Source: Bacteroides sp. (GTDB lineage: Bacteria; Bacteroidota; Bacteroidia; Bacteroidales; Bacteroidaceae). Taken from it: 64,000 nucleotides of DNA. How positions within the stretch are numbered: the first letter of the stretch is position 1; every line of letters begins with the position of its first letter. Positions 7,945 through 15,930 of this stretch are shown one piece after another. The stretch covers positions 1 through 64,000 of the forward strand of contig JAMPDJ010000006.1 in the NCBI GenBank assembly GCA_023665805.1, read 5' to 3'. The notes under the pieces are model-generated. The model saw nothing but the letters and a program-made list of their open reading frames with translations. It was not told the DNA's origin and ran no database searches. A program made the position numbers and the translations under genes.

Positions 7945-8048
7945 ATAGTGTGGCCGGTGGCATGACAATAGTATTGTCGGGGTCGCGTTCATAGTATTGT
8001 CGAGGTCGTGTTCATAGTATTGTCGTGGTGCCGACCATACGTGGACCG
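7945..8048. repeat. Array of five degenerate 23-base direct repeats
   Basis: A 12-base core recurs at 7945 (ATAGTGTGGCCG), 7968, 7991 and 8014 (ATAGTATTGTCG, three identical) and in weaker form at 8037 (ATACGTGGACCG), always exactly 23 bases apart. The 11 bases between cores are also similar (for example GGGTCGCGTTC and AGGTCGTGTTC). The array lies 100-205 bases upstream of the 3860-7843 gene in a 637-base gap with no convincing gene. A related array lies at 52034-52112. Confidence 0.8.
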
Positions 8049-8170
8049 AATTGCGTTTCACAAAGGCCGCATTTTGTCCTCCGCATTGGGCATTCCGGTG
8101 TAGCTTTGCCTCCCCTCGGGAACGGCATGATCGCAGGAGAACATAAATGAATTTTGTGCTGACTGCATCG

Positions 8171-8178
8171 CAAAAATA
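8171..8178 (-). promoter_or_regulatory. Candidate -7 box upstream of the 3860-7843 gene
   Basis: The minus strand reads TATTTTTG, fitting TAnnTTTG. If used, the leader would be about 320 bases long and would contain the 23-base repeat array. No clear -33 element was found, so this is a weak call. Confidence 0.3.
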
Positions 8179-8465
8179 TAGTTTTGGCGCGGAAAGGCCT
8201 TGAACTTTATTTGCTTAACATGACACTATATTTGCAACATCGGCTTTGTGTGCTGAAAAGCATGTTTTTTGTTGCGTATGACGGGGGGACGATGGTCGTA
8301 TTCCGGGCAAGACGGGAGTGTGTTTGGTTTATAGGCATGAGCGTTTGTCCTTGCTTGGGAGCCGGTGGGTGTACAGGAATGTTTTCCGGTGGGCCGTTAA
8401 CCAACATTAACATGCCGTGCCGGCAAATAAATCATGCTCCTATGCAGGCCGCAGGCTTTTTTTAG

Positions 8466-8473
8466 TACCTTTG
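8466..8473 (+). promoter_or_regulatory. -7 box for the 8490-9571 gene pair
   Basis: TACCTTTG matches TAnnTTTG. Transcription would start near 8480, leaving almost no leader before the ATGs at 8481 and 8490. The upstream -33 element is only a TG at 8443-8444. Confidence 0.5.
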
Positions 8474-8489
8474 TACGGAGATGATGCTG

Positions 8490-9023
8490 ATGAGGAACCC
8501 CATAATATGGCTTTGGCGCGTGAGGCACCGTAACGGATACGGGGTGCATTCGCCCTTTGCCTTCGACTTTGTCACCAACGTGCTGTACAATGGCGAACAC
8601 TATTATGCTTACGAGGAAATGGACCGCGCATTGTGCTGGTGGCAAAGGGGCAGGGTGAGGAGCCTGAGGCGCCTTCTCTTCAGAATGGCCAATTACCGCA
8701 GGCCGAGGACACTGTGCTGCCATGGAATGGACGAGGATACGGCCATGGCGGTGTATCGTGGCAGTAGAGGGGTGACGGTCATGGGCATGGAAGAAGAGGG
8801 GGAGGTTGCCGACATGATATTGACAGGACGGTCCGACGGACGCGTCTTGCGGCATCTGGGGGAGGGCAGCATGGTGGTGCTATGGAACCTGCAGGGGCAA
8901 CGGCAATTGTGGCGGCAGCTGCAGGAGGACGAACGCGTGACCGTGACATTCGACCTCTATGACGTGGGGGTGGCATTTGCGCGCAAGGACTTGAACAAAC
9001 AACGCTATATCATAAACTGGTGA
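8490..9023 (+). CDS. Short methyltransferase-like protein of a Bacteroidetes family
   Basis: The N-terminus carries RHRNGYGVHSPFAFDFVTNVLY. I recognise this HG-VHSPFAF-type signature from Bacteroidetes proteins annotated as class I SAM-dependent methyltransferases. The C-terminus (FDLYDVGVAFARKDLNKQRY) also resembles that family. At about 177 residues it is short, and I cannot see a clear glycine-rich SAM-binding loop, so the catalytic function may be lost or the assignment may hold only at family level. The start is uncertain: ATGs at 8481, 8484 and 8490 are in frame, and 8490 is preferred because the -7 box at 8466-8473 leaves no leader for 8481. The stop overlaps the GTG start of the adenosyltransferase by 4 bases, which points to translational coupling. 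Confidence 0.6.
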   Translation: MRNPIIWLWRVRHRNGYGVHSPFAFDFVTNVLYNGEHYYAYEEMDRALCWWQRGRVRSLRRLLFRMANYRRPRTLCCHGMDEDTAMAVYRGSRGVTVMGMEEEGEVADMILTGRSDGRVLRHLGEGSMVVLWNLQGQRQLWRQLQEDERVTVTFDLYDVGVAFARKDLNKQRYIINW

Positions 9024-9571
9024 AAATCTATACACGAACAGGAGACGAGGGCATGACCGACCTGGTGGGCGGATGCCGTGTGAGAAAGGATTGCATGCGT
9101 CTGGAGGCCTATGGCACGGTTGACGAACTGAACAGCCACATGGGCTTGCTGGTGGCTGCGATGGACGATGAAACCGCCATAAATTGCATTCACGGGTGCC
9201 AGTCGGTGTTGTTGGCGATGGGTGCCGTGCTGGCAACTGACAAGGAGGCCGGAGGGCATACCGGACAGGCTGTGACCGACGGGGATATTGCCGGACTGGA
9301 GCGCACGATAGATGCGTGGAGCGAGGACCTTCCGCCATGGAGGGGCTTCGTGCTTCCCGGGGGAACCGAGGCGGCGGCTCGGGCGCACGTATGCCGGACG
9401 GTCTGCCGTAGGGCGGAAAGGTGTATCCTGGCATTGGCCAGGGAGGCCGATGTGCCGGGGGAGGTGCTGAGGTATGTCAACAGGTTGAGCGATTTGTTCT
9501 TCGTGTTGGCCCAACGGTTGAACTTTTTGGCAGGGAAAGAGGAAATTTTGTGGCAAAAGCGCATGCCGTGA
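9020..9571 (+). CDS. cobO: Cob(I)alamin adenosyltransferase, PduO type
   Basis: Transfers the adenosyl group of ATP to cob(I)alamin, making adenosylcobalamin in the cytoplasm. The N-terminus KIYTRTGDEGMTDL is the ATP-binding signature of the PduO/MMAB family, and RLEAYGTVDELNSHMGL follows as expected. The C-terminal part contains the conserved helix with NRLSDLFFVLAQ. The length of 183 residues is normal. The start is GTG at 9020 within GTGA, overlapping the stop of the preceding gene, so the two are one transcription unit. The family symbol is a choice among cobO, pduO and mmaB-like names; the sequence belongs to the PduO fold, not the CobA/BtuR one. No cobalamin riboswitch was seen upstream. 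Confidence 0.9.
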   Translation: MKIYTRTGDEGMTDLVGGCRVRKDCMRLEAYGTVDELNSHMGLLVAAMDDETAINCIHGCQSVLLAMGAVLATDKEAGGHTGQAVTDGDIAGLERTIDAWSEDLPPWRGFVLPGGTEAAARAHVCRTVCRRAERCILALAREADVPGEVLRYVNRLSDLFFVLAQRLNFLAGKEEILWQKRMP

Positions 9572-9584
9572 ATGATAATAATAC

Positions 9585-9592
9585 TATCTTTG
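9585..9592 (+). promoter_or_regulatory. -7 box for the DUF2795 gene
   Basis: TATCTTTG fits TAnnTTTG and lies 57 bases before the start codon at 9649, just after the stop of the adenosyltransferase gene. A TG 20 bases upstream could serve as the -33 element. Confidence 0.5.
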
Positions 9593-9648
9593 CAGCCAAA
9601 AATGTGCGCAGGTCGTGCATGAGACTAATAATAAAGCAGATATAGAAT

Positions 9649-9870
9649 ATGTATTGGACATTGGAATTGGCCTCCAAGCTGGAGGACGCGCCTTGGCCGG
9701 CAACCAAGGAGGAGTTGATTGACTATGCCGTGAGAAGCGGTGCTCCGCTGGAGGTGATAGAGAACCTGGAGGAGATAGAGGACGAAGGCGACGTGTACGA
9801 GACCATCGAGGATATCTGGCCGGACTACCCGCAGAAGGAGGACTTCTTGTGGGATGAAGATGAATACTGA
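9649..9870 (+). CDS. DUF2795 small acidic protein
   Basis: A 73-residue protein beginning MYWTLELASKLEDAPWPATKEELIDYA, with an internal GAPLEVIENLEEIEDEGD stretch and a very acidic tail (WDEDEY). This matches the conserved DUF2795 family found as short stand-alone proteins in Bacteroidetes. Its function is unknown. It has its own -7 box. The last 13 bases of the gene are homologous to sequence at 11729-11741 and, less closely, at 13623-13635, because the boundary of a duplicated downstream cassette falls inside its 3' end. Confidence 0.85.
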   Translation: MYWTLELASKLEDAPWPATKEELIDYAVRSGAPLEVIENLEEIEDEGDVYETIEDIWPDYPQKEDFLWDEDEY

Positions 9871-9917
9871 CACATAATAGAAGTTCATCTGTTTGATTTA
9901 CAACGGGTTGGCTTTCA

Positions 9918-10071
9918 CACTGCGCGACAGTCATCCCGTTTTTCTGTCCCTTTCAGTGCCTTTTATAGCAAAATAAACTGACGTAAAACTTACGTACCGG
10001 CATTTTAGGAATATAACACTGTCGCCAAACTATTGTATCTTCGTGTGATATAACATAGGAATAATATATAA
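9918..10071. repeat. 154-base cassette repeat A, copy 1
   Basis: By eye this is base-for-base identical to 11791-11944. It contains the inverted repeat ACGTAA-AAC-TTACGT in the middle and GCGACAGT near the left end paired with ACTGTCGC about 90 bases on, so it may fold or bind protein. Weaker homology extends on both sides, to the end of the DUF2795 gene on the left and, after a diverged stretch, to a shared promoter segment on the right. No coding frame is evident. Confidence 0.9.
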
Positions 10072-10177
10072 CGCACATGAAGATTTCTATTCATTCTTTG
10101 GCTCACAGTTTTCTTTATAGAAGTGTCTATGTTTCAGTGTTCTTATGATTATACATAAAGAAGTTTGTTTCGCATCT

Positions 10178-10209
10178 TTTGGGTCTTTGGAAGAAATAAT
10201 CTATCTTTG
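10178..10209 (+). promoter_or_regulatory. Consensus promoter of the first cassette ATPase
   Basis: TTTG (10178-10181), 20 bases, then TATCTTTG (10202-10209), a full match to the Bacteroidetes sigma consensus. Transcription would start near 10215, inside the adjoining hairpin. The segment before the -7 box is shared with the second cassette. Confidence 0.75.
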
Positions 10210-10210
10210 C

Positions 10211-10248
10211 ACTGACGAAACGGTCGCATTTGCAACCATTTCGTCAGT
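10211..10248 (+). promoter_or_regulatory. 38-base leader hairpin before the first ATPase
   Basis: The arms ACTGACGAAA (10211-10220) and TTTCGTCAGT (10239-10248) are perfectly complementary. Inside, GGT pairs with ACC and GC with GC around an ATTT loop. It begins one base after the -7 box and ends 25 bases before the ATG, so it overlaps the transcription start and could be an operator or an RNA structure. Confidence 0.75.
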
Positions 10249-10273
10249 AAGAGCCACAGCATAGGATATAATT

Positions 10274-11599
10274 ATGATCATAGAAAGAAACGAATACATT
10301 GAGCAGTTGTTTGCTAAACGCTGGAACGGGAAGGTGAAAATCATAACCGGTATAAGGCGTTGTGGCAAATCGTTCCTGCTCTCAACTCTCTTCAAGAACC
10401 GTTTGATTTCGGAAGGAGCACAGGAAGAGGAGTTCATAGAAGTGGCTCTTGATAGAAAGTCTGACATCAAATATCGTAATCCGAATCTCTTATACGATTA
10501 TGTAATGGAGCGTACAAGGAACACGAGTCGGAAATATTATGTGATGATTGACGAGATTCAGCTGTCATATAAGGTGAAGAATGAAGATGTGGACGAAGCC
10601 TTGGTGCCCGAAGAGGATAGAGAAATGCTTTATACAACGTTCTATGATATTTTGAATGATATGATGGCACGTCCTAATCTTGATGTGTACGTTACTGGTT
10701 CAAACTCAAAGATGCTGTCGAAAGATATAGTGACGAATTTTCGTGACAGGGGTTCGGAAATAAGGATTTATCCGTTGTCCTTTGCAGAATATCTGTCGAT
10801 ATCCGGAATGGAGAAGGCCGATGCACTGGAGGAGTATCTGATGTATGGCGGTATGCCTTTGGCGGTTCTTGAACCGGATGAGAAAGAAAAACGCAAGTAT
10901 CTGCAAGGTCTCTTTTTCAATGTCTATATCAAAGATATTGTAGAGCGTTACAGCCTGAAAGACGATAACATCTTAAGTGCTTTGGTCGATGCTCTCTCGT
11001 CATCAGTCGGTTCTCTTACCAATCCCAGTAAACTTGCCAACACAGCCGGTTCCGTGATGGGGAAGTCGCCTTCTCGCAATACCATCAAGAATTATCTTGA
11101 CTACGTAGAAGATGCTTATCTTTTTCAGAGTGCAAGACGATGGAACGTGAAAGGCAGGAAGTATTTCGATAAGATTCAGAAATATTATGCAATGGATTTG
11201 GGATTGAGAAACGCCTGGTTGAATTTTCGTCAGCAAGAGCGTTCTCACCTGATGGAGAACATGATATATAACGAACTCATTCGCAGAGGATATTCTGTGG
11301 ATGTCGGTATTGTAGAAGTGACACGCGTGATAGACGGTCAGCGCAAGACGTCTCAATATGAGATAGACTTCGTGGTTAACATCGGCAATGATAAAGTATA
11401 TATCCAGTCCGCCTTGAATGTTGACACTCCGGAAAAGAAATACCAGGAGACATTCTCACTGAGAAATACAGGTGACTTTTTCCGTAAGATAGTCGTACTG
11501 GACGGTAGCCGCAAACTATGGACAGACGAAGATGGCGTGATGTATGTAGGGGTGATTCCATTTATGCTGGAGGATATTGTAAAAGAAGTTCTTGGGTAA
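10274..11599 (+). CDS. AAA ATPase with C-terminal DUF4143 (cassette 1)
   Basis: An N-terminal P-loop domain (AAA_14) shows Walker A GIRRCGKS near residue 27, Walker B YVMIDEIQ near residue 95 and a sensor-like VYVTGSNS near residue 145. The C-terminal half (MENMIYNELIRRGY, then YEIDFVVN and VYIQ) is the DUF4143 domain, whose core resembles a PD-(D/E)XK nuclease fold but with a degraded active site (IQS where a catalytic ExK would be). The length of 441 residues is usual. The family is multi-copy in Bacteroidales genomes; its cellular role is not established. Relative to the second cassette ATPase it has an extra stretch of roughly 25 residues after Walker B (KNEDVDEALVPEEDRE). It has its own promoter and leader hairpin and lies between repeats A and B of its cassette. 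Confidence 0.9.
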   Translation: MIIERNEYIEQLFAKRWNGKVKIITGIRRCGKSFLLSTLFKNRLISEGAQEEEFIEVALDRKSDIKYRNPNLLYDYVMERTRNTSRKYYVMIDEIQLSYKVKNEDVDEALVPEEDREMLYTTFYDILNDMMARPNLDVYVTGSNSKMLSKDIVTNFRDRGSEIRIYPLSFAEYLSISGMEKADALEEYLMYGGMPLAVLEPDEKEKRKYLQGLFFNVYIKDIVERYSLKDDNILSALVDALSSSVGSLTNPSKLANTAGSVMGKSPSRNTIKNYLDYVEDAYLFQSARRWNVKGRKYFDKIQKYYAMDLGLRNAWLNFRQQERSHLMENMIYNELIRRGYSVDVGIVEVTRVIDGQRKTSQYEIDFVVNIGNDKVYIQSALNVDTPEKKYQETFSLRNTGDFFRKIVVLDGSRKLWTDEDGVMYVGVIPFMLEDIVKEVLG

Positions 11600-11610
11600 T
11601 TGACAATTCT

Positions 11611-11709
11611 CGACTGTCGCAAAGTGCATTTGAGTGCATACGGCAGCAAAATAAACTATCGTAAAACGTATGCGACTAAATTATGCTGTTTAATACCAAT
11701 AGGTTATGA
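11611..11709. repeat. Cassette repeat B, copy 1
   Basis: About 99 bases directly after the first ATPase gene, matching 13506-13605 with about five substitutions. It includes a GCAAAATAAACTATCGTAAA block that resembles the centre of repeat A, so the ATPase gene lies between related flanking elements. The frame through it stays open, but most differences between the two copies would change amino acids, which argues against a coding role. Confidence 0.8.
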
Positions 11710-11790
11710 ACATTGCCGCCTTTTCAACGAAGATGAATACTAACACACAGTAGAAGTTTATCTATTTGATTTGCAATTGGTTGGCTTTCG

Positions 11791-11944
11791 CACTGCGCGA
11801 CAGTCATCCCGTTTTTCTGTCCCTTTCAGTGCCTTTTATAGCAAAATAAACTGACGTAAAACTTACGTACCGGCATTTTAGGAATATAACACTGTCGCCA
11901 AACTATTGTATCTTCGTGTGATATAACATAGGAATAATATATAA
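11791..11944. repeat. 154-base cassette repeat A, copy 2
   Basis: Identical to 9918-10071. It is preceded by a further block of about 60 bases homologous to the tail of the DUF2795 gene and its downstream bases, including GAAGATGAATACT at 11729-11741. This shows that the two cassettes are tandem copies of one unit of about 1.87 kb. Confidence 0.9.
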
Positions 11945-12045
11945 ATCACATGAATGTTTCCGTCCGTTCTTCAGCAAACTGTTTTCTTTAATGTCCATGT
12001 TTCTATGCTTTCATGTTCGTATATAAAGAAGTTTGTTTCGCATCT

Positions 12046-12077
12046 TTTGGGTCTTTTAAAGAAATAAACCAGCTTTG
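12046..12077 (+). promoter_or_regulatory. Promoter of the second cassette, first site
   Basis: TTTG (12046-12049), 20 bases, then CAGCTTTG (12070-12077), one base off consensus. It is homologous to the promoter at 10178-10209 and, like it, is followed by ACTGACGAAA. Confidence 0.55.
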
Positions 12078-12108
12078 TACTGACGAAACCATATCTTGAG
12101 TGTATGTT

Positions 12109-12146
12109 ATTATCAAAAGTTGGCATGATTGCCATTTTTTGATAAT
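12109..12146 (+). promoter_or_regulatory. 38-base hairpin in the second cassette leader
   Basis: The arms ATTATCAAAA (12109-12118) and TTTTGATAAT (12137-12146) pair perfectly; TGGCA and TGCCA pair inside around a TGAT loop. Length, arm length and loop size equal those of the hairpin at 10211-10248, while the sequence is different. Confidence 0.75.
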
Positions 12147-12175
12147 AGAAAATCGCTGATATCAATCATTCTTTG

Positions 12176-12215
12176 TAGTTTTGTAGTGACGAAATATGGT
12201 AATAACACCATATTT
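12176..12215 (+). promoter_or_regulatory. Second promoter and 24-base hairpin before the second ATPase
   Basis: TAGTTTTG (12176-12183) fits TAnnTTTG and is followed by AGTGACGAAA, echoing the ACTGACGAAA that follows the other two -7 boxes. A perfect inverted repeat AAATATGGT / ACCATATTT (12192-12200 and 12207-12215) ends 16 bases before the ATG at 12232. No -33 element was found at the right distance. Confidence 0.5.
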
Positions 12216-12231
12216 TGATAATAGAAGCGAT

Positions 12232-13485
12232 ATGCAGATAAAAAGAGACCAGTATTTGAATCAGCTGATAGCCGGCAGAAAGAACGGGTTGATAAAGATA
12301 ATTACAGGTATCTGGAGGTGTGGAAAGTCTTATTTGCTTTTTACTCTCTTTCATGAATATCTGAAATTACAGGGTGTTGATGAAGGACATATCATCGAAA
12401 TAGCCTTAGATGATCGCATGAACATTGCACTGCGCAATCCGGATGCAATCCTTAAACATATCAAGGAACGGATTGTCGATAATGAATTGTATTATATTCT
12501 GTTGGATGAAGTACAGTTGATTCCTGAATTTGAAGATGTGCTGAATAGCTTGCTCCATATCCGTAATGCTGATGTATATGTAACGGGAAGTAACTCCCGA
12601 TTTCTGTCCTCCGACATCGTAACTGAGTTCAGGGGACGTGGAGATGAGATTCGTCTTTATCCCTTGTCTTTCTCAGAGTTTTGCGAGGGCTACCGTGGTG
12701 ATAGGAATAAAGCATGGAAAGAGTATTATACTTATGGCGGATTGCCACTGATACTCTCTCTCGAAACAGAAAAGAAGAAGACGGACTATTTGGAGAATCT
12801 GTACAAGAGTGTGTATCTGGCAGATATACAGGAGCGTAATAACGTAAGGAATAAGGTGGAGCTTGATGAACTTGTCAGGATTATAGCATCTTCTATCGGT
12901 TCACCGGTCAATCCAACCAAGCTCTCCAATACATTCAAAAGTGTCAAGAACGTTGATATACACCATCAGACCATTTCAAACTATCTTTCGTACTTGGAGG
13001 ATGCTTTTCTTGTAGAGAAGTCCATTCGCTACGACATCAAGGGGAAAAGATACATCAACACTTTATCTAAATATTATTTCTCAGACCTCGGCATGAGAAA
13101 CTCGCTCCTCGTGTTCCGCCAACAGGAAGAGAATCATATCATGGAGAACATCATTTACAATGAACTAAGAATAAGAGGCTGCCATGTAGACGTGGGCATG
13201 GTTGAACAGCGCACATTGGACAAGAATGGAAAGTATGTAAGAAAGCAATTGGAAGTGGACTTTGTTGTGAATCAGGGGAATAAACGATATTACATACAGT
13301 CGGCGTTTGCTATGCCTGATGAAGAGAAACTGAGACAAGAAACAGCGTCTCTGCTAAGAATCGATGATTCTTTTAAGAAGATTATCATCGTAAAAGACGA
13401 CATTATGCCCAAACGAGATGATAACGGTATCATGACAATAGGTATTATGGATTTCCTGCTAAATCCCGAGAGTCTTGATTACTAA
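12232..13485 (+). CDS. AAA ATPase with C-terminal DUF4143 (cassette 2)
   Basis: Same architecture as the first cassette ATPase: Walker A GIWRCGKS near residue 27, Walker B YILLDEVQ near residue 91, sensor-like VYVTGSNS, and a C-terminal DUF4143 region with MENIIYNELRIRG, LEVDFVVN and YYIQ. The protein has 417 residues from ATG 12232. An in-frame ATG at 12196 would add 12 residues but lies inside the 12192-12215 inverted repeat; 12232 is preferred because MQIKRDQYLNQL aligns with the start of the paralog. The two proteins align end to end but with many substitutions, in contrast to the nearly identical DNA on either side. Substrate and partner are unknown. Confidence 0.9.
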   Translation: MQIKRDQYLNQLIAGRKNGLIKIITGIWRCGKSYLLFTLFHEYLKLQGVDEGHIIEIALDDRMNIALRNPDAILKHIKERIVDNELYYILLDEVQLIPEFEDVLNSLLHIRNADVYVTGSNSRFLSSDIVTEFRGRGDEIRLYPLSFSEFCEGYRGDRNKAWKEYYTYGGLPLILSLETEKKKTDYLENLYKSVYLADIQERNNVRNKVELDELVRIIASSIGSPVNPTKLSNTFKSVKNVDIHHQTISNYLSYLEDAFLVEKSIRYDIKGKRYINTLSKYYFSDLGMRNSLLVFRQQEENHIMENIIYNELRIRGCHVDVGMVEQRTLDKNGKYVRKQLEVDFVVNQGNKRYYIQSAFAMPDEEKLRQETASLLRIDDSFKKIIIVKDDIMPKRDDNGIMTIGIMDFLLNPESLDY

Positions 13486-13505
13486 AAAGAATCTGATGAC
13501 ATGAA

Positions 13506-13605
13506 CGACTGTCGCAAACTGCATTTGAGTGCATATGGCAGCGAAATAAACTGTCGTAAAACGTATGCGACTAAATTATGCTGTTTAATACCAACAGGTT
13601 ATGAA
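13506..13605. repeat. Cassette repeat B, copy 2
   Basis: Matches 11611-11709 with about five substitutions. Weaker homology continues to about 13638, where a third degraded version of the cassette boundary (GAGGAGGAGTATTGAC) marks the end of the tandem unit. Confidence 0.8.
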
Positions 13606-13678
13606 TATGCCGCTTCTTCAATGAGGAGGAGTATTGACGGCAGGCGATGGAAATCGGCCCGATGGGAGGCTTGGCGGG

Positions 13679-13735
13679 TTGCTGGTGCTGGAACTGGTTG
13701 TTGGTGCTGAAGCATGTTGCTGGTGCTGAAGCACT
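13679..13735. repeat. Three tandem 19-base repeats
   Basis: TTG(C/T)TGGTGCTG starts at 13679, 13698 and 13717, exactly 19 bases apart, and the remaining seven bases of each unit are similar. The gap of about 440 bases between the second ATPase and the transposase otherwise holds repeat B and a run of nine C (13877-13885) and nine A (13893-13901). No gene is seen in it. Confidence 0.7.
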
Positions 13736-13928
13736 GAGCAGTATCGGATGATGTCTTCTCATTGGCCGGGGAATTTGGTGAGGCGGGTTCCTTGGATAGC
13801 CGGTGGCTTTCGGCCCACCTGTCGCCTGCCGCAGGATTATGTTCTGTTACTGCTCATGGCTTTAGCCGCTTTCCCTCCCCCCCCCAACACACAAAAAAAA
13901 ACGAACATTATTCAACCATTGCAATGAT

Positions 13929-14837
13929 ATGAACAAGATCGGTAGATGCTGGAAGCATGACTATCGCTCTCCCGGAATATATCTGATAACTATACGGAAA
14001 CACCCTTCTCTTCCGGACTTCGGATATATTGTGGGGGATTGTCGTATACCGCCGGGAGTGCCGGGGTGCGCTGAAGTGAGGTATACCCGGATGGGCAGTG
14101 ATGTGAATCGCGAAATCTGGCGGCTTCCCATGATAGATGGCCGGTTGAAGGTGTTGCAGCATAGGGTGATGCCGGACCATGTACATATCGTGCTGAGGGT
14201 GTTGGGGCGACTGGATGAGCACGTGGGTAAGTATATTGCGCGTTTTGAGAGCCGCCTGAAAGGTTATTTTGAGGCTGGATACAACGACCAGATACTCACT
14301 AAGGACAGAAGTCTGGCGGTCATGATAAACTACGTGAGGGAAAATCCCCACCGGCTCGCTGTCATGCGCTGTCATCCCGAATTTTTCCGGCGGGTGAGGA
14401 ACATCACTACCGCCGACATGCAACTTGAGGGCTATGGCAATTTTTTCCTGTTGAAGTATCCTTTGATTGAGCCTGTCATCGTCCATCGCGCCTGGAGCGA
14501 CCTGGAGTTGGAGCGGAAACGTGCCTATTGGCACCATGTGGCATCCAACCATGGCGTGCTTGTTTCCCCTTTTATCAGCAAGGCGGAGAAGGTTGTCCGC
14601 GATGAAGTCCTGGAACTTGGCGGACGCATAATACACATCAATCCCGAACCATTCGGAGATGGTTTCACCAAACCCCAGGGGCACGACTTCAGCCTCTGTG
14701 CCGAAGGTCGCCAATTGATTCTCGCACCGCGTGTCTCGAGGTCTCCTGTCCTGACACGCGGCTTGTGTCTGGACCTTAACGCTGTTGCCACGGCCATTGC
14801 AGCCAATCCTGCCATCCTGCTTCGCTCTTCGTGCTGA
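13929..14837 (+). CDS. IS200/REP-associated-type HUH transposase with C-terminal extension
   Basis: Single-strand DNA transposases of the Y1 (IS200) superfamily nick with one tyrosine. Here RVMPDHVHIVL holds the HUH motif (HVH, near residue 90) and MINYVRENPHR (near residue 140) the tyrosine-containing helix, both as in REP-associated tyrosine transposases. The N-terminus (HDYRSPGIYLITIRKHPSLPDFG) fits the Bacteroidetes branch. After residue 195 a further 100 residues (GVLVSPFISKAEKVVRDEVLELGG, then a segment with SLCAEGRQLILAP) form an extra domain absent from minimal IS200 transposases. No insertion-sequence ends were identified around it, so it may be a domesticated enzyme acting on dispersed hairpins. 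It lies directly upstream of the T9SS operon, but a functional link is not implied. Confidence 0.8.
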   Translation: MNKIGRCWKHDYRSPGIYLITIRKHPSLPDFGYIVGDCRIPPGVPGCAEVRYTRMGSDVNREIWRLPMIDGRLKVLQHRVMPDHVHIVLRVLGRLDEHVGKYIARFESRLKGYFEAGYNDQILTKDRSLAVMINYVRENPHRLAVMRCHPEFFRRVRNITTADMQLEGYGNFFLLKYPLIEPVIVHRAWSDLELERKRAYWHHVASNHGVLVSPFISKAEKVVRDEVLELGGRIIHINPEPFGDGFTKPQGHDFSLCAEGRQLILAPRVSRSPVLTRGLCLDLNAVATAIAANPAILLRSSC

Positions 14838-14973
14838 AAGTAGGTTCCGGTGCATTGGCCGGTTCGCATTGCTCTTGCAGGTGATATGCCGGCATGTGGC
14901 GGAGTCGGGAAAGTTCTTGGTAAAATAATAAGGTGTGTGGGCAATAAACATGTGGCACGGTGCGTTGTAATAT

Positions 14974-15930
14974 ATGATGAAGAGGCTATTGTTGATATTG
15001 GCATGGATGCTTGCTCCATTGTGGGCTATGTGTCAGGACGATGTGGCCTTCACCAATTTCTGGTCGTTCCAGAGCTTCTATAATCCTGCGGCGGCAGGAC
15101 GTTCGGCATTGTTGGACGTTAAGGGAGCCTATAGGATGGAGATGCTGGGATTCGAGGATGCCGGTCAGACCATGTTGGTGCAGGGAGACTTGCCTATGTT
15201 CTTCATGCCCAAGGCCGAGAGACATGGCATTGGGGCCGGCTTTATGAACGATAAAATCGGCCTTTTTTCCAACAAGCGCATGTGGTTGCAGTATGCATAC
15301 CATCAACCGTTGGGCAAGAAATACATCCTGAGTGCAGGGTTGCGGCTGGCCTTTGTCGCCAACTCGTTCAATGGCAGTGACGTGGAACTGGGAGAGGGCA
15401 CCTCGGACGAATATGTGCCCACGACGGATGTCAATGGCACGGGTTTCGATATGGACTTCGGTATGAGGTTCGAGCGCAGAAACATCTGGTATGCCGGTGT
15501 TTCGGTGACACATCTGTTGAGTCCTTCCGTGTCCATGGGCACGGACAAGCAATTTCAGATGAAGACGTCGCCCACCATATATGCCACAGGCGGGTATGAT
15601 GTGAAGATGCGCCGTCCGGAATTCGTGCTGAGGACCGCCGCCATGTTTCGCACGGATATGCAGAACTGGAGGGCGGACGTTGCCGCGCGCTTGTGTTATG
15701 ACGGTGAAAAGGGCAAAATGTATGTCGGTCTCGGTTATAGTCCGACCGTCAGCGTGGCGTTGCTTCTGGGCATGGACTTCCATGGAGTGAACATAGGTTA
15801 CAGCTACGAGATGTACACCGGAGGCATAGCCGTGCAGAACGGTACGCATGAGATACATCTGGGTTATCAGATGGAAATGAACCTGGCCAAGAAAGGCAAG
15901 AACAGGCATCAGTCCGTGCGATGGCTTTGA
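14974..15930 (+). CDS. porP: Type IX secretion system outer-membrane protein PorP/SprF
   Basis: A signal peptide (MMKRLLLILAWMLAPLWAMC) precedes the conserved PorP/SprF opening (DVAFTNFWSFQSFYNPAAAGR), and the rest is a beta-barrel pattern of alternating strands ending in a basic tail. The length of 318 residues is usual. PorP is an outer-membrane protein of T9SS that works with the PorK-PorN ring and with the type B substrate sorting machinery. It is the first gene of the cluster followed by porK, L, M and N, the order known from Porphyromonas and Flavobacterium. Two adjacent ATGs (14974, 14977) are possible starts. Confidence 0.9.
   Translation: MMKRLLLILAWMLAPLWAMCQDDVAFTNFWSFQSFYNPAAAGRSALLDVKGAYRMEMLGFEDAGQTMLVQGDLPMFFMPKAERHGIGAGFMNDKIGLFSNKRMWLQYAYHQPLGKKYILSAGLRLAFVANSFNGSDVELGEGTSDEYVPTTDVNGTGFDMDFGMRFERRNIWYAGVSVTHLLSPSVSMGTDKQFQMKTSPTIYATGGYDVKMRRPEFVLRTAAMFRTDMQNWRADVAARLCYDGEKGKMYVGLGYSPTVSVALLLGMDFHGVNIGYSYEMYTGGIAVQNGTHEIHLGYQMEMNLAKKGKNRHQSVRWL

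Follow-up and report, generated by a model that had tools for sequence, protein, structure and literature searches.

Autorepression of a promoter through paired inverted repeats is known from the AbiEi antitoxin of type IV toxin-antitoxin systems, which is a winged-helix protein. Orc1/Cdc6, a protein composed of an AAA+ module plus a winged helix, likewise binds paired inverted DNA sites.

One group of ATPases is known from surveys of defence genes. PDC-S01 (PADLOC), an ATPase fused to a PD-(D/E)XK domain, is reported to rank fourth in frequency among defence candidates across prokaryotes, with most PDCs awaiting validation (PMC12988326), and to be the commonest individual locus in rumen genomes (PMC13356809). 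The available portions of these two accounts make no mention of cognate DNA sites, autoregulation or palindrome-bounded gain and loss. The open literature searched gave no account of PDC-S01 regulation or of a binding target, and named DUF4143 in one paper only, within a table of Thermus genes.

Both ATPases described here, which are encoded in tandem in the window (the whole 64,000-nucleotide stretch of Bacteroides DNA that was analysed), fall in PDC-S01. We propose that each ATPase is probably the repressor of its own promoter and reads palindromes private to it, which act as double-stranded DNA operators.

The two ATPases and their palindromes

The window proteins scored 95.9 and 106.5 bits against AAA_14 (Pfam cut-off 27) and 71.6 and 71.7 bits against DUF4143 (cut-off 28.1), and most of each protein was matched by the PADLOC model for PDC-S01, PDLC04787 (E 6.9e-101 for gene 1 and 4.5e-119 for gene 2). 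They are candidate anti-phage genes with a presumed role in defence. No match for the ATPases was obtained in a PDB sequence search or in PHROGs and NCBIfam, no relative of gene 1 was found on viral contigs, and a phylum-wide search returned no close relative outside the order.

The AlphaFold2 model of the gene 1 product (pLDDT 91.6, pTM 0.90) predicts an AAA+ module, a lid, a winged helix (about residues 228-306) and a C-terminal alpha-beta domain. The best structural matches to the AAA and winged-helix part of the model were the archaeal AAA+ ATPases SSO1545 (PDB 2fna; Z 18.2, rmsd 3.4 over 266 residues) and PABY2304 (2qen; Z 18.0, rmsd 3.2 over 267 residues). These differ from the window proteins in that identity is 14-17% and the alignment stops at about residue 316, with the nuclease-like domain outside it. 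STAND NTPases and Orc1/Cdc6 followed at Z 13-15; for Orc1/Cdc6 bound to origin DNA (2qby, Z 13.4) the rmsd of 10.1 over 260 residues indicates a domain-wise likeness. The folds predicted with confidence here are thus of a DNA-binding type, which speaks for the operator reading.

Modelled alone (pLDDT 89), the C-terminal domain matched PD-(D/E)XK nucleases, namely McrC (Z 9.2, rmsd 3.8 over 133 residues), Can2 (Z 8.4, 3.7, 121), Bax1 (Z 7.5, 3.2, 102) and Hjc (Z 6.1, 2.9, 86). The predicted core fold is shared with McrC, Can2/Card1, Bax1 and Hjc, the difference being the motif III lysine. Across 60 sequences the lysine of motif III, (E/Q)xK, is replaced by alanine in an invariant Q378-S-A380, which makes nuclease catalysis doubtful. 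Residue K388, one helix further on and also invariant in these 60 sequences, could stand in for it.

The initial annotation had described a 38-base leader hairpin before each ATPase, with perfect 10-base outer arms, an inner stem and a 4-base loop. This geometry was borne out by the sequences and by their RNA folds. Site 1 (10211-10248) reads ACTGACGAAA-CGGTCGCATTTGCAACCA-TTTCGTCAGT and folds at -19.5 kcal/mol (z -5.92); site 2a reads ATTATCAAAA-GTTGGCATGATTGCCATT-TTTTGATAAT at 12109-12146 and folds at -17.0 kcal/mol (z -6.16), with 0/200 shuffles equalling the fold in either case. The features of the locus are as follows.

9856-10221, + strand: left flank of unit 1, with its tandem duplicate at 11729-12089
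10202-10209, + strand: predicted -7 promoter element of gene 1, TATCTTTG, which fits the Bacteroidales consensus TAnnTTTG
10211-10248, no strand: site 1, the 38-bp palindrome of gene 1, in a downstream-type position overlapping the predicted transcription start
10274-11599, + strand: ATPase gene 1, AAA_14, winged helix and DUF4143 (PD-(D/E)XK-like); PDC-S01
11611-11713, + strand: trailer of unit 1, which recurs at 13506-13608 with 94% identity
12070-12089, + strand: relic in unit 2 of a gene-1-type promoter and left palindrome arm (..CTTTGTACTGACGAAAC)
12108-12147, no strand: site 2a, upstream palindrome of gene 2, arms ATTATCAAAA/TTTTGATAAT
12176-12183, + strand: predicted -7 promoter element of gene 2, TAGTTTTG (TAgtTTTG), between sites 2a and 2b
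12184-12223, no strand: site 2b, the downstream site of gene 2, a chimeric palindrome at a distance of 76 bp from site 2a
12232-13485, + strand: ATPase gene 2, AAA_14 and DUF4143, 47% identical to gene 1; PDC-S01
13506-13608, + strand: trailer repeat of unit 2

Transcription of gene 1 is expected to start at about 10216, within the left arm of site 1. The hairpin at 12109 is not adjacent to gene 2: it ends 85 nt before the ATG at 12232 and lies upstream of the likely promoter. It is therefore an upstream site, and would belong to a leader only if the relic promoter were still active.

The downstream copy, site 2b, had not been noticed in the earlier reading of the window. Its left part, TAGTGACGAAA, resembles site 1, matching the gene 1 arm at 13/16 positions including the promoter TTTG (3/5000 shuffles were as good), and its right part, TTTTGATAATA, resembles site 2a. 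Within the window, then, a twin layout around a promoter is seen for gene 2 only, with one copy chimeric, and gene 1 has a single clear copy; that neither gene has a perfect twin layout counts against the operator reading.

The ATPase leader is present at just two places in its own genome, where no other copy of site 1 was found above background and no second complete palindrome was seen for site 2. The sole exact match to the outer arms, on a phage-like contig with no such ATPase nearby (L159), was rejected as an unrelated palindrome. The leader of a homologue about 40% identical (L293) has the outer arms of site 1 (ACTGACGAAA..TTTCGTCAGT) around a different inner part, and judging by this case palindrome arms seem to be reused.

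The upstream repeat A, which had been reported as identical between the units, was confirmed by flank and trailer alignments as part of a tandem duplication. In the left flank, 9856-10117 matches 11729-11990 at 92% and 10124-10221 matches 11992-12089 at 84%. This repeat starts in the 3' end of a small conserved upstream gene and stops inside the left arm of site 1. The trailer of unit 1 may hold a decayed third site, GACTGTCGCAAAGTGCATTTGAGTGCATACGGCAG, an assignment that is uncertain. Left flank and trailer also share a degenerate 47-nt direct repeat (9945-9992 and 11623-11669; ..AGTGC..AGCAAAATAAACT..CGTAAAAC..), perhaps the remains of an older site pair. In close relatives with aligned flanks (L191, L192, L196 and L197) 67-300 nt separate the upstream gene from the downstream porP-like gene, which indicates that the intervening 5-kb block was acquired in the window species.

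Just past the ATPase units lies a REP-associated-transposase-like gene (13929-14837) with an MPDHVHIVL motif, which matches NF047646 (REP_Tyr_transpos) weakly at 20.2 bits, below the cut-off of 80. A similar gene occupies the corresponding spot in L188.

Twin palindromes in homologous leaders and co-variation with the protein

Leaders of 106 homologous genes were picked by protein similarity (>=45%), leader sequence being ignored in the choice, and scored for a direct repeat at p<=0.01 against dinucleotide shuffles, with 128 leaders of other genes at the same loci as controls. A significant twin repeat was present in 46/106 homologous leaders versus 6/128 control leaders (Fisher p = 5e-13), with a spacing of 73-78 bp in 40 of the 46; the roughly half of homologous leaders without one are a point against the operator reading. 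A strict-stem palindrome scan gave few matches because inner mismatches are common, and centre-based and twin-repeat scores were used instead. By the former, a palindrome centre score of at least 8 was reached in 56/107 leaders versus 6/107 shuffled ones.

Since the twin test had been shaped after inspection of leaders, a hold-out run was made on 27 fresh leaders, mostly of proteins 27-43% identical, counting as a pass a twin repeat at p<=0.01 or a palindrome at p<=0.05. Thirteen of the 27 passed, against about 2 expected, and in distant subfamilies the twin palindromes were spaced 40 bp apart instead of 76. Both sets show that these elements are neither absent from the leaders of homologous genes nor just as frequent as in random A/T-rich leaders.

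The common order was palindrome, promoter, repeated palindrome at the transcription start and gene. A promoter-like element stood directly 5' of the downstream copy in 60/73 curated cases versus 40% in shuffles. The typical arrangement is therefore two palindromes flanking the promoter, occasionally with a third after the gene, and not the one hairpin per ATPase that was first proposed.

Thirty leaders from other DUF4143 subfamilies included 11 with significant palindromes and 6 with significant direct repeats, and the third DUF4143 gene of the same genome (L003 2653-2776; also PDC-S01) is preceded by 3.8 copies of a 32-bp tandem repeat abutting the start codon. Taken with the distant hold-out leaders, this makes private leader repeats look like a recurrent trait of the family.

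Co-variation between site and protein, which the initial annotation had suggested looking for in homologous leaders, was found among 68 curated sites. Where proteins were 40-50% identical, site identity was 0.43; it climbed to 0.74 for proteins more than 80% identical. The Mantel correlation between site and protein was r 0.328, a value reached in 0/2000 permutations (maximum 0.141), compared with r 0.05 for the adjoining promoter segment. The value depends on how the sites are defined, being r 0.33 with curated centring and only 0.18 for auto-centred sites, and even with the promoter control it may come partly from shared ancestry.

Partial correlations with the site were 0.167 for the winged helix (0/300), 0.210 for the nuclease-like domain (0/300) and 0.073 for the AAA domain (24/300). 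The winged helix and nuclease-like domain may thus predict site similarity better than the AAA domain, a ranking that is suggestive because ancestry was only partly removed. The idea that the recognition helix alone sets specificity was unsupported (partial r 0.08).

Likeness between sites was highest within leaders. The two copies in one leader are 75% identical, compared with 46% against other leaders and 63% against the site of the nearest protein relative, and a leader's own copies were each other's best match in 25/43 cases. Some columns hardly change over the 68 sites (A at -12 in 62/68, AA at +8/+9, TT at +11/+12), with variable positions between them. The sequences of the two window hairpins had been called unrelated, a term that is too strong given the near-fixed columns. 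The suggestion that a kept architecture with changing sequence marks a specificity element is, by contrast, backed by the common size and place of the sites, their co-variation with the protein and the within-leader likeness.

Gain and loss of the gene at the palindrome

The related genus g84 was scanned in 26 genomes, in which a reversed control pattern yielded no hits. Six genomes hold the unit with exactly three copies of the palindrome, at spacings of 75-76 and 1316-1363 bp, and single (solo) copies occur at other places, giving 1-5 site copies per genome where counted. Several species have one palindrome precisely where other species hold the gene. Between L245 (gene present) and L241 (gene absent) the left flank is 95% identical through site 1 and the right flank 95.8% identical over 2665 nt from site 3, exactly one palindrome staying in L241; L179 and L186 form a second such pair. 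The solo sites at the L245/L241 locus are identical over 37 nt amid flanks that differ by 5-15%. By these alignments the palindromes evidently mark, in this one genus, where the gene came or went; at the window locus no such precise presence and absence was seen.

These loci bring in the main rival to the operator reading, which is that the palindromes are primarily the ends or target of a very small mobile gene. Either the ATPase-nuclease itself or a host recombinase that it guides would move a site-promoter-site-ORF-site unit that leaves or uses a single palindrome, and autoregulation would be a by-product of the protein binding its own ends. We hold this to be a rather doubtful but serious possibility, and it may be true together with the operator reading. 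The three-copy units, the clean filled and solo pairs and the conservation of the solo sites are what it would predict, and autorepression leaves both the solo copies and the third copy after the gene unexplained. The full three-site layout recurs in L039, the closest relative of gene 1 (81%), and the window itself shows both a recombination junction within site 1, in its left arm, and the chimeric make-up of site 2b.

The filled state is found on two separate branches of the flank tree, implying that a pre-existing site was filled twice or that the gene was lost several times. Two gains would suit a mobile gene, but the two filled copies at this locus (locus A) have diverged (82%) much as their flanks have (about 85%), which fits better with a gene that is old at this place and has been lost repeatedly. 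Plain homologous recombination across the 37-bp direct repeats could, moreover, remove the gene with no need for a dedicated enzyme. The unit also has no transposase, its only protein being an ATPase-nuclease whose motif III lysine is replaced. Further points against mobility are that only 8/104 homologues have a significant third site after the gene, and that relatives of the window species have no solo site at the window locus. The stronger claim that PDC-S01-type ATPases are one-gene mobile elements, each with a private palindrome that is both operator and exact gain/loss junction and that stays behind as a solo copy, is slightly more doubtful. If it were true, the co-diversification of palindrome and protein would represent a large natural set of orthogonal DNA-recognition pairs.

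Directly beside g84 solo palindromes in L183 (1312-4272) and L182 (4619-6016) are AbiEii genes and another ATPase; in L183 an AbiEi-like partner accompanies AbiEii, so that an AbiE pair adjoins the solo palindrome. These neighbours are a circumstantial hint at a defence context.

In Prevotella nigrescens (L149 and L150) an ATPase of the family lies amid Eco57I-type methylase fragments near an Mpi-type recombinase, and one strain record of this species places the ATPase on a 2630-bp circle. The circle was considered as an excised ATPase unit and set aside, as it probably reflects the neighbouring restriction-gene and Mpi-recombinase locus instead.

Proposed mechanism and comparison with known systems

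Three further readings of the sites are unlikely. The first is that they are operators of a separate host or neighbouring regulator. The recognising protein could indeed be another than the ATPase, as binding by the ATPase is what we infer and promoter-flanking palindromes are typical of dimeric repressors; the site sequence, on the other hand, follows the ATPase across species, paralogues in one genome differ in their sites, and in the loci examined no regulator gene stands consistently beside the ATPase, as befits a single-gene system.

A similarly small chance attaches to the palindromes working at the mRNA level, whether as a stabiliser of the 5' end, an attenuator or a translational operator. 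Site 1 begins at the predicted transcription start and has a strong RNA fold, but in most twin leaders the upstream copy precedes the promoter and is not part of the predicted transcript. Among mismatches within the palindromes there is no preference for wobble pairs (G-T/T-G 59 versus A-C/C-A 52), solo copies occur without any such gene, and an Rfam search of 8000-15000 gave no match up to E = 1. The position of the upstream copy and the lack of an excess of G-T over A-C mismatches make the palindromes look like DNA sites and not RNA hairpins, contrary to the leader hairpins of the initial annotation.

Least likely is debris of a REP/RAYT-type or other repeat family with no link to the ATPase, given that the weak REP_Tyr_transpos match of the neighbouring gene is set against a leader at only two genome places, the low copy numbers in g84 and the presence of the sites with homologues in other phyla.

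In the operator reading, the AAA_14/DUF4143 ATPase, with its modelled AAA+ module, winged helix and PD-(D/E)XK-like domain, would recognise its own palindrome of about 38 bp. The two copies, 75-78 bp apart, would present one site abutting the upstream promoter element and the other at the transcription start, and since this distance is about seven helical turns they would lie roughly on the same face. A protein oligomer on both copies would cover and bridge the promoter and keep expression of its own gene low until released by a trigger, plausibly phage infection. The fixed scaffold columns would set the geometry and the variable columns the specificity, so that paralogues in one cell would be insulated from each other.

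Should every such protein prove to read a palindrome of its own, matched protein-site pairs are on hand in thousands of genomes, which would make the specificity, regulation and trigger of the PDC-S01 family directly testable by gel-shift and reporter assays. A twin or solo palindrome would likewise be a sequence signature for tracking PDC-S01 gain and loss, and the sites offer a first handle on a very common, uncharacterised candidate anti-phage gene.

Promoter-flanking operators and autorepression are known kinds of regulation. As far as the open literature was searched, three things are new: the private twin palindromes found across the family of PDC-S01/DUF4143 ATPases, the way in which these co-vary with the protein, and the palindrome-bounded presence and absence of the gene, the last in one genus. 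Orc1/Cdc6 serves as a works-like comparison for how such a fold could read DNA; it is without the PD-(D/E)XK domain, and the window ATPases give no sign of its origin function. AbiEi is the product of a separate antitoxin gene, whereas here the ATPase, winged helix and nuclease-like domain would be combined in one protein.
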